The position numbers and the translations under genes were made by a program. The notes below the pieces were generated by a model, which made no database searches, was not told the DNA's origin, and was given only the letters and a program-made list of their open reading frames with translations. From the NCBI GenBank assembly GCA_011391085.1, contig JAABRD010000024.1, positions 1 to 64,000 on the forward strand: a stretch of DNA of 64,000 nucleotides, read 5' to 3'. This stretch comes from Thiotrichaceae bacterium. GTDB taxonomy: Bacteria > Pseudomonadota > Gammaproteobacteria > Beggiatoales > Beggiatoaceae. This document shows positions 2,987 through 7,296 of this stretch, piece by piece; positions within the stretch are counted from its first letter, which is position 1; every line of letters begins with the position of its first letter.

Positions 2987-3229
2987 ATGGAAATCATAAA
3001 GCAAATAGTTGCCGAGGCAATTTTGGAATTGCCCGACACGGCGAATTTTAGTGATATTGTGGCAGTATTGGAAACCTGCCGGCAGGAGTTTGAGGATAAC
3101 ACCCTGGTGACGACAGAAACCAAAGCTATTTCGTTTTTAGAAGCAGCTAAAGAATATGTCGGTTGCATCAAGGATGCTCCAGCAGACTTGTCTATTAATA
3201 AGGCTTATTTTGACGGCTTTGGATTATGA
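2987..3229 (+). CDS. Putative antitoxin of a PIN-type TA pair
   Basis: 80 aa, acidic, with no signal peptide or membrane segment. I do not recognise its DNA-binding fold. The assignment rests on context: its stop overlaps the start of a PIN-domain protein by four bases (ATGA), the usual translational coupling of vapBC operons. AGAGG lies at a suitable distance from the ATG. Confidence 0.65.
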   Translation: MEIIKQIVAEAILELPDTANFSDIVAVLETCRQEFEDNTLVTTETKAISFLEAAKEYVGCIKDAPADLSINKAYFDGFGL

Positions 3230-3648
3230 GACAATCCATTATACTCGATGCTGGACCTTTAGTAGCTTTTCTGAGTGAACGGGATGCCTATCACGATTGG
3301 GTAACGCAACAAGTAACCACGATTCAATCCCCATTGTTAACTTGTGAGGCAGTCCTCACGGAAGCCTGTTTTTTGTTACGCAAGCATTTTAAAGCACCGG
3401 TGGTCATGGAAATGGTACATCAAGACTTTATCTCAATACCCTTCCACTTGAATAAGCAGGAGACCGCACTTATCAAGAATCTGATGACCAAATATGCCAA
3501 TTTGCCTATGTCTTTTGCCGATGCCTGTTTAGTCAGAATGTCGGAACAATTTCCTCACAGTACCATCTTGACGTTAGACAGTGATTTTCGGATTTACCGC
3601 AAACATGGTAATCAACTTATACCAGTTATTATGCCTAGTATTCAGTAG
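3226..3648 (+). CDS. vapC: PIN-domain ribonuclease toxin (VapC-like)
   Basis: 140 aa. PIN-domain proteins cut RNA with a Mg-binding cluster of acidic residues. Here Asp8 in ILDAGPLVAF, the Glu of the LTCEAVLTEAC segment, Asp in SFADACLVRM and Asp in LTLDSDF supply the expected acidic set. Length is typical for VapC. The coupled upstream gene is the likely antitoxin. A GTGGGCAAC-family palindrome follows the gene. Confidence 0.82.
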   Translation: MRQSIILDAGPLVAFLSERDAYHDWVTQQVTTIQSPLLTCEAVLTEACFLLRKHFKAPVVMEMVHQDFISIPFHLNKQETALIKNLMTKYANLPMSFADACLVRMSEQFPHSTILTLDSDFRIYRKHGNQLIPVIMPSIQ

Positions 3649-4475: not shown

Positions 4476-4730
4476 ATGTTGAAAAGTTACGAAGCGATTT
4501 ACCGTCAAGGTCAATTACGGTGGCTTCATCAAGCACCGCCGACAGTTGACCAAGAACTACGGGTTTTGGTAGTAGCAGAGATAGTCGAAGCCAAAACTCC
4601 AACCAAACACCATTTGCATGAAGTATTACAACAAGCTTGGGGCTGTCTGGGGACGGGTAAGTCCCTGGATGACATTGACCGAGAACTTCAGGTAATGCGT
4701 CATGAATGGGAAAGGGAGTGGGACCAATGA
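4476..4730 (+). CDS. Putative antitoxin of the second PIN pair
   Basis: 84 aa starting MLKSYEAIYRQGQLRWL. The N-terminal strand and the C-terminal RHEWEREWD helix match a paralogue encoded at 60347-60640, and a truncated third copy lies at 62244-62312, so this is a family spread through the region. GGAGAA precedes the ATG. The stop overlaps the next start by four bases. Confidence 0.7.
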   Translation: MLKSYEAIYRQGQLRWLHQAPPTVDQELRVLVVAEIVEAKTPTKHHLHEVLQQAWGCLGTGKSLDDIDRELQVMRHEWEREWDQ

Positions 4731-5122
4731 CCACGTTGTATGTACTTGACTCCAATATGCTTATCTACTATCTGAATGCCAGCTTAACGGAATCCGTTCG
4801 CCAACAAGTGGAAGAGGCGATAGAACAGCAGGCGTTTATCTCCACCATTACTCGGATAGAAGTTCTTGGCTGGCATCAGCATAGTCCAACGTCGTTTCGC
4901 CAAGCGAAAGAGTTGCTAAATCATCTGAGTGAACAATCCTTAAATGAGGCAGTGGTGAATTTGTGTATCCAGTTACGACAAACCACTCCTCTGAAACTTC
5001 CCGATACCATCATTGCTGCCACAGCTTTGCATCTAGGATTACCTTTGATGACTCGCAATGTCAGTGACTTTCAAAAAGTCCCTCATTTGACCCTCTTCAA
5101 TCCTTTTGAAAATCAGGCATAG
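4727..5122 (+). CDS. vapC: PIN-domain ribonuclease toxin (VapC-like)
   Basis: 131 aa from the ATG that overlaps the antitoxin stop; an upstream in-frame ATG at 4706 lies inside the antitoxin gene and is less likely. PIN motifs: DSNMLIYYL (first Asp), TRIEVLGW (Glu), KLPDTIIAATAL (Asp) and TRNVSDF (last Asp). It is clearly paralogous to the toxin at 59985-60392, and both keep the acidic residues. Confidence 0.85.
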   Translation: MTTLYVLDSNMLIYYLNASLTESVRQQVEEAIEQQAFISTITRIEVLGWHQHSPTSFRQAKELLNHLSEQSLNEAVVNLCIQLRQTTPLKLPDTIIAATALHLGLPLMTRNVSDFQKVPHLTLFNPFENQA

Positions 5123-5130
5123 ACTGGTAG

Positions 5131-5330
5131 GGTGCGTCCCACGCACCATTTTTTAAATGCGAAGTCGTTGCCCACTCTACCTAACTCCTCAAACCTGACA
5201 AGTCTGTTAGACCTGTCAGGTTTAACACCACTGTCCGCCAACCCTGTCTTCTGGTAAACTAACTCGCCTCACCTTCGTTCAATCAAATCTGCGAAATAGT
5301 GGGCAACGATAAAGTTGTTTCCCACCCTAC
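5131..5330. repeat. Composite repeat block, copy B
   Basis: Contains a short GGTGCGT/ACGCACC hairpin (5131-5147), the second copy of the AAACCTGACAGG palindrome with one mismatch (5191-5223), the TGGTAAACTAAC tail, and the fourth GTGGGCAAC-family hairpin (5299-5330). It lies between convergent genes and could end transcription from both sides. Confidence 0.8.
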
Positions 5331-6082: not shown

Positions 6083-6308
6083 AGTGATGACTCCAGAATT
6101 TTTGCGAATGGAGAAGAATATAGCAGATTTCGTGCTAAGTCAAGGAGATTTTAAGTCGTTATAACAAACAGGAAAACCGAAGAAAATATTGACAAGCGCG
6201 TTTTTACAAGCCATACTTAACATAAGAAAATATTTTTCTGAAACGGACGGAACAATTATGCGTATCCATTTTAACTTTGACCTAGAAACGGCCATGGTAA
6301 AACTGTTG

Positions 6309-7140
6309 ATGGTGATAGAGAAAGACATCCTCTCGTTATAGATTAGGTCTTCCCCCCACCCCAAACCGTGCAGGAAACTTTCGCTTCACACGGCTTTCAA
6401 AGGTTTTGGTCGGGGCTTGCAGACCCAATGACCACCAGCCGGTTTTAGAAAAACAAACGGCTGGCCTTAACTCACGGTCTTTGTAGATTAGTAACCCGTT
6501 TTAGTAGCACCAAGCTAATCATCAAGTTGATTCTCCTACCATAAAAGTAGGCTCTCAATCAACTACCTTGAGGCTGGTTAAAAATCCAAAGAACTCTCAT
6601 GAATTAAGAAACCTCCTAGCGTACTTTGGTTCCATTCTGCCATGGGATTCGTGTGTTTCTATCAACCACGATAAATTAATCATTCCCTTGACTTACATAC
6701 TATTACGCCTCTGTGAGATAACTAAGAATTAGCTAACACCTAGTCCATTGGACACTTAGTCACCTCATCCCTAGTTTCAGTCGTTAAGAATCTATTGACC
6801 GTGTTAGGTTGTCTCTCTACTAAAGACACCTTTAGAGTGTTACAATGGTGGTGGGACGTCATTGTATAGGTGTCTTTGACCCTGTAAGTTTTTTGAGGCT
6901 TCAACCAAGACTTTGCGGAAGCTCACCATAACGGTTTCTCCAAGCGGTGGTGACGTTAAACAGAGCCTCCTAAGTTCGCCATTCCGCAGTTTTCCTCTCG
7001 CGGTACACCCAAATGACTGGTTAGAGTCTCCGAGGTCTGAGAGTAAGGACTTCATAAACTACCCAGATTAAAGATATTTCTGGTTTTCACTCCATGAAGG
7101 GGGAATTTCACCCCATTTCTTAACGCCTAACTAGGCACAC
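6309..7140 (-). mobile_element. Complete group II intron without an ORF, inserted in a REP-like palindrome
   Basis: 832 nt. The 5' end reads GTGTGCC followed by TTAGGCGTTAAG, close to the GUGYG start and early domain I of known bacterial group II introns. Domain V is at 6361-6398 with an AGC triad, domain VI ends at CACCAT. The 5' exon ends GGTGGG (7141-7146 on the complementary strand). A hairpin at 6841-6866 exposes CCCACC (6850-6855), which pairs perfectly as EBS1. A second loop at 7019-7024 exposes CTAAC, a candidate EBS2 for GTTAG in the exon. The 3' exon resumes CAACAG, as expected for an uninterrupted GTGGGCAAC-family repeat. No reverse transcriptase fits, so mobility would need a protein made elsewhere. 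Confidence 0.82.
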
Positions 7141-7160
7141 CCCACCTTACCTAACTCCTC

Positions 7161-7214: not shown

Positions 7215-7296
7215 TATAGTTTGTAGGGTGGATTAAGCGAAGCGTATCCACCAACTATAGTTTGTAGGGTGGATTAAGCGAAGCGTATCCACCAAC
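7215..7296. repeat. Tandem duplication of a 41-bp palindromic repeat
   Basis: Two copies (7215-7255, 7256-7296) of a unit containing GTAGGGTGGATTAAGCGAAG and its near-complement GTATCCACC. Single copies of the same family occur at 59139-59168 and 60798-60827. The following bases to 7490 hold a 28-codon frame (7335-7421) that I cannot support as a gene. Confidence 0.85.

Follow-up and report, generated by a model that had tools for sequence, protein, structure and literature searches.

An ORF-less group II intron with guide sequences that match the head of a GTAG-tagged REP palindrome in a Thiotrichaceae bacterium

We analyzed a window of 64,000 nt (positions 1 to 64,000 of contig JAABRD010000024.1, assembly GCA_011391085.1, from a Thiotrichaceae bacterium) and confirmed that it contains, between genes, a group II intron without a reverse transcriptase (RT) gene. 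The intron occupies 6309..7140 on the minus strand, with its 5' end at 7140 and its 3' end at 6309. A first-pass annotation made from the sequence letters had described an 832-nt element with a GTGTG start, a domain V/VI end and no RT, and all of this held to the exact coordinates. An Rfam covariance-model search matched RF00029 at 6398..6309(-), stopping exactly at 6309; the score was 57 bits, over a gathering threshold of 40, and RF00029 also matched sister copies of the intron. The longest ORF wholly within the intron (71 aa, on the intron strand) is the only one of at least 60 aa in the ORF list. A profile search of the genome contigs found no RT ORF in the window intron, the genome's only RVT_1 matches falling elsewhere. 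The intron opens with GTGTGCCTAGTTAGG (5' GTGTGCC) and closes with CTATCACCAT (3' CACCAT); every full-length copy has the boundaries GTGTG...CAT, in agreement with the GUGYG and AY signature of group II introns. Near the intron are two PIN-domain genes (3226-3648 and 4706-5122, plus strand) that likely encode toxin-antitoxin toxins, and an apparent remnant of a gene start (6258-6308, plus strand) that is cut near the interrupted REP palindrome; in a sister species (L086 996-1607) the whole gene is preserved. The features of the locus are as follows.

6309..7140, minus strand: ORF-less group II intron, GTGTGCC...CACCAT, 832 nt (RF00029, 57 bits; four own and two sister full-length copies; exon junctions)
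6363..6396, minus strand: domain V, 34 nt, AAGCCGTGTGAAGCGAAAGTTTCCTGCACGGTTT region (RF00029 alignment and consensus fold columns 759-792)
6309..6362, minus strand: domain VI and 3' end (consensus fold)
6316, minus strand: candidate branch-point A, 8 nt from the 3' end (A825, unpaired beside a GGUG/CACC helix in the consensus fold)
6850..6855, minus strand: EBS1, CCCACC, in a hairpin loop (ranked first in an unbiased complementarity scan of 11 copies)
6885..6889, minus strand: EBS2, ACTTA (own-site pairing total, permutation test over 11 copies)
6817..6817, minus strand: candidate EBS3 (G), pairing with C+1 (complementarity to the initial 3' exon base, 9 of 10 copies)
7141..7146, minus strand: IBS1, GGTGGG, the REP 5' arm (exact complement of EBS1)
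7149..7153, minus strand: IBS2, TAGGT, overlapping the GTA(A/G) REP head (pairs with EBS2, one G-U)
6296..6308, minus strand: rest of the interrupted REP in the 3' exon, CAACAGTTTTACC, with a degenerate 3' arm (joined exons; hairpin not above shuffles)
5152..5245, minus strand: unoccupied paralogous target, a hairpin and then GAGGAGTTAGGTAGAGTGGGCAACG, uninterrupted (89% match over the 5' exon into the junction)

The genome carries four full-length ORF-less copies of the intron (100, 91, 83 and 78% identity) along with 3' and 5' fragments; the sister species, Thiomargarita sp. SulCav_PC08, of the same genus, adds two full-length copies (90 and 82%), both at other loci. A larger related family is also present in the genome, its copies broken off at contig ends, which makes this inventory an incomplete one. 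Its ends are nearly identical at no fewer than 12 contig ends; since the copies stop there, the interior of this high-copy family, with or without an intron-encoded protein (IEP), is missing from the assembly. Using the six full-length copies from the two sister genomes, we derived a consensus fold of 247 pairs, 32 of which show at least one two-sided compensatory change; within domains I-IV these pairs are predicted from the alignment of the copies. The stem that presents CCCACC in its loop is one of those that covary (columns 278-303), and the A bulged 8 nt from the 3' end falls within the 7-8 nt spacing of a branch point. The window copy and the fragment L005 are 98% identical over 291 nt, so that one event was recent. 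L005 and L007 lack the 5' end and retain an intact 3' end seated in a REP, the outcome expected if target-primed reverse transcription stopped before completion.

Joining the exons of the window intron gives GTTAGGTAAGGTGGG|CAACAGTTTTACC, part of a repeat that is a GTAG-headed palindrome, GTAGGGTGGGCAA...TTGCCCACC. In 5.77 Mb we counted 101 exact palindromes and 142 exact GTAG heads, and the reversed control patterns gave 0. GTAG-tagged REPs are a recognized super-family tied to RAYT transposases (PMC3733652). Our target has the head, the palindrome and more than 100 copies, and the genome encodes a RAYT (REP-associated tyrosine transposase; NF047646, 159 bits); the RAYT gene, on C75, is bordered by members of a second REP family, which shares the GTAGGGTGG head. 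Two copies of this second family (GTAGGGTGGATTAAGCGAAGCGTATCCACC) are also found in the window at 7223-7294 on the plus strand.

Nearly every readable site of the window-intron subfamily is a REP: the exons are REP sequence around the window copy, L002-L007, C50 and L027 in this genome and L035, L039 and L046 in the sister, the 3' fragments L005-L007 likewise ending in a REP. The other copies of the subfamily therefore have the same GTAG-GGTGGGCAA repeat at their flanks rather than unrelated sequence. Sister copies at unrelated loci carry identical exon words, so the exon match of the window copy is not due to chance. Each of the nine insertions that could be read lies on the strand with the head, GTAG/GTAA (0.002 if the strands were equal). 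The copies divide into two subtypes that cut one and the same repeat one base apart, and EBS1 has changed to match (CCCACC or CCATCC). Subtype A (window copy, L002, L035 and the 5' part of C50) has the junction GGTGGG|CAA and subtype B (L003, L004, L039 and L027, the 3' side of L027 being absent from the assembly) has GGGTGG|GCAA, with L004 reading GAATGG|. Relatives with other EBS1 and EBS2 sequences occupy other targets, at least two of which are repeats (a TATAG repeat in L040 and a GTCTGAATCAG repeat in L069).

We located the guides by comparing, in 11 copies, each 6-nt segment of the intron with exon positions -6 to -1, an approach that does not presuppose where EBS1 lies, and repeated an equivalent scan of exon positions -13 to -8 for EBS2. 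The loop that the first-pass annotation had paired with the exon end GGTGGG, CCCACC, ranked first, and its partner words change with it across copies (EBS1:IBS1 pairs CCCACC:GGTGGG, CCATCC:GGGTGG, GAATCC:GGATTC, GAATGT:ATATTC, AATCCG:CGGATT and TAGAAT:ATTCTA). In permutations of the exons, whose figures are not strict probabilities because the copies are related and some have exon words in common (differing target words are separate changes), the EBS1 loop averaged 5.71 of 6 pairs versus a best value of 4.65 in 300 permutations, the EBS2 own-site total over the 11 copies was 53.5 versus a permutation maximum of 52.0 (0 of 100,000 reached it), and 8 of 5040 orderings of the REP copies alone equaled or bettered the own-site pairing of EBS2. 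Of the 9 copies scanned, 8 have a base complementary to position +1 of the 3' exon at the candidate EBS3 column (9 of 10 when L028 is added), the exception being L040; we discarded an alternative column beside GTTGAAGCC that fits only 6 of 9. Hence the element displays the pairings of a group IIB intron: EBS1-IBS1, EBS2-IBS2 and a candidate EBS3-IBS3.

A search for a trans-acting maturase, also proposed in the first-pass annotation, recovered only a broken protein from this assembly, whose repeats are collapsed where contigs end, but an intact one from the sister species. The only group II protein assembled here, on C50 (L031 940-2539, minus strand), is split by a frameshift, reads YTDN for YADD and carries an HNH domain. 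Its best match among solved structures is 6me0, which we take to be the Thermosynechococcus elongatus RNP. The intact Thiomargarita IEP (554 aa, with YADD and HNH) is 39% identical to the C50 protein, and domains V and VI of its host intron are closely similar. The C50 IEP appears to belong to an IEP-bearing intron whose insertion interrupted a REP intron, and a single domain V/VI remains there. Such nesting, with an IEP-bearing or 5'-truncated intron inside a REP intron, was seen at G000:C50 (L031 700-3315) and at G001:C343 (L046), and the insertion points are nearly equal in the REP introns of the two species (CTGTTT/CTGTTA). An IEP N-terminal remnant is kept in the ORF-less relatives L040 (E 3.9e-6) and L028 and is undetectable in the window copy. 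The pattern of an absent RT ORF in the window copy with ORF remnants in close relatives is that of ORF loss of the T. elongatus type. We set aside two further RVT_1 matches, one on C67 that resembles a diversity-generating retroelement (DGR) and one on C47 that resembles a decayed relative of the C67 element.

The claim that the exons rejoin to an intact palindrome stood only in part. The junction is indeed GTTAGGTAAGGTGGG|CAACAG, and the rejoined REP keeps the head and the 5' arm, but its 3' arm is degenerate (TTTTACC) and the hairpin of the joined site does not rise above shuffled sequences (z 0.39). Folding the joined target sites gave strong hairpins in 5 of 7, a weak one at L003 and none in the window, which implies that the hairpin shape is either unneeded or was lost later. 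The unoccupied paralog at 5152-5245 includes an upstream hairpin and GTGGGCAAC. The orthologous locus of the sister provided no clean empty site; an intact gene lies there, of which the window keeps the first codons only, and the unoccupied paralog within the window served in its place.

These folds bear on a rival reading in which the intron recognizes its target by hairpin shape, in the way that terminators and attC sites are recognized by group IIC introns. Group IIC introns are generally described as relying on stem-loop shape and lacking EBS2, and their proteins as lacking an HNH domain. Like them, the REP intron inserts at palindromic DNA outside genes, most of its joined sites fold strongly and, in L008, a perfect stem-loop immediately precedes IBS1. 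Yet IBS1 is part of a hairpin arm and does not follow a stem-loop, folding is weak at the window and L003 sites, and the 3' exon of L011 belongs to the second REP family, which has only the head in common with the first. Further, EBS1, EBS2 and EBS3 pairings are all seen, EBS2 co-varies with its sites and the related IEP on C50 has the HNH domain, all of which places the element outside group IIC. Recognition by shape is therefore quite improbable, and the sequence comparisons suggest a correction: the target would be the REP head, read through base pairing. Even less credible is the proposal that the copies spread as passengers of transposing REPs, or by recombination between REPs, rather than by homing. 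REPs are thought to be mobile, the genome has a RAYT and the introns of the subfamily are seated in REPs, which speaks for it. However, REP loops and flanks differ among copies, so these are not duplicates of one loaded REP; the insertion register tracks EBS1, EBS2 fits the flank of each site, and relatives with other EBS1 words are in other targets (L040, L069).

The reading that we favor, with a probability of roughly 85%, is that a mobile IIB intron lost its ORF, borrows a maturase/RT in trans and retrohomes into REPs through EBS pairing. EBS1 would bind the opening six bases of the REP 5' arm and EBS3 the exon base that follows them, and EBS2 would contact the GTA head and its immediate upstream neighbors; the two EBS1 spellings would then direct insertion in two registers one base apart. 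The guides of individual copies match their own exons, and insertion into one REP family occurred repeatedly and independently. The large target pool follows from a guide word that belongs to a repeat found at more than 100 places, and the intron lies in the same REP repeat as its sister copies because the guides are spelled to match the REP start. As the first-pass annotation anticipated, the target is repeated (142 heads), but the sites are not all equivalent: recognition takes in the head and, upstream of it, a contact with EBS2, on one strand. That REPs act as safe landing sites that spare the host is a reasonable inference. Because REPs are extragenic by nature, the guide match may be simpler to explain as target choice than as host selection for splicing. 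More tentatively, the lineage could have specialized on the REP network, with EBS1 locked to the head in two registers, EBS2 drifting with each flank and insertion confined to the GTAG strand, possibly because replication or the action of the RAYT leaves that strand of the REP single-stranded; we regard this extension as doubtful.

A further alternative is that every copy is an inert fossil, with no splicing or movement today, and that the guide matches are relics of earlier activity. The broken IEP of the assembly, the 5'-truncated copies and the divergence of the full-length copies (78-91% identical) are all compatible with fossils. On the other side are the EBS2 sequences that still fit each site, the intact domains V and VI, the recent event recorded by the window copy and L005 and the high-copy family, whose interior has yet to be assembled and whose ends have hardly diverged. 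We consider complete inertness unlikely, though by no means negligible.

The proposed mode of action has a precedent in the T. elongatus introns TeI3/TeI4 (Mohr et al., 2010; PMC2882425), for which retrohoming of an ORF-less intron with the IEP in trans was shown experimentally and drift of the EBS opens new sets of targets. As in those families, the introns described here appear to be ORF-less through ORF deletion and to form twintrons, and would depend on an IEP in trans, and families with differing EBS are aimed at different sites, which in T. elongatus are mostly intergenic or in other mobile elements. The new part would be the GTAG-headed REP target, with more than 100 sites, together with insertion in two registers offset by one base in that target; unlike T. 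elongatus, the present assembly has no intact driver IEP. Some group II copies are also located at REPs in Pseudomonas putida KT2440 (2 of 9 tabulated; Tobes and Pareja, 2006; PMC1525189), but they are a minority in a paper on insertion sequences, whereas here nearly all readable sites are REPs and the guide match is seen. Candidatus Thiomargarita nelsonii, of the same family, has 57 IIB2-type introns, including non-coding versions, and palindromic repeats have been noted in it (PMC4853749); the parts of that report available to us contain no insertion-site or EBS analysis. The literature we searched, with most subscription journals outside its scope, contained no account of EBS-directed homing into REPs. 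The many insertions in one repeat family provide a clean natural experiment on the search of selfish introns for harmless targets, in which guide and target change together, down to a one-base insertion shift matched by the guide. They also suggest that REPs serve as a landing array for a retroelement and not for insertion sequences alone, and they offer naturally retargeted introns with known target pools.

Other retroelements and repeats were noted alongside the REP introns. The start of the contig (window 2-93, plus strand) is the 3' end (D5/D6) of another group II intron. Nearly the same D5/D6 end is shared by at least 12 contig ends, most with the 3' exon TAAAATTCTGnAAATTCTGATTCAGAC, which belongs to another repeat family; a pattern search with the 5' exon of this high-copy family (CTGTTTGTGTG) gave chance-level matches only. 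The DGR-like locus L032 (G000:C67) comprises a variable-repeat gene, an ORF of accessory-protein size, an RT and a template repeat. Last, the sister species has a TATAGTAATATTC-ended repeat that holds an intron in L040 and is uninterrupted in L048 (411-533).
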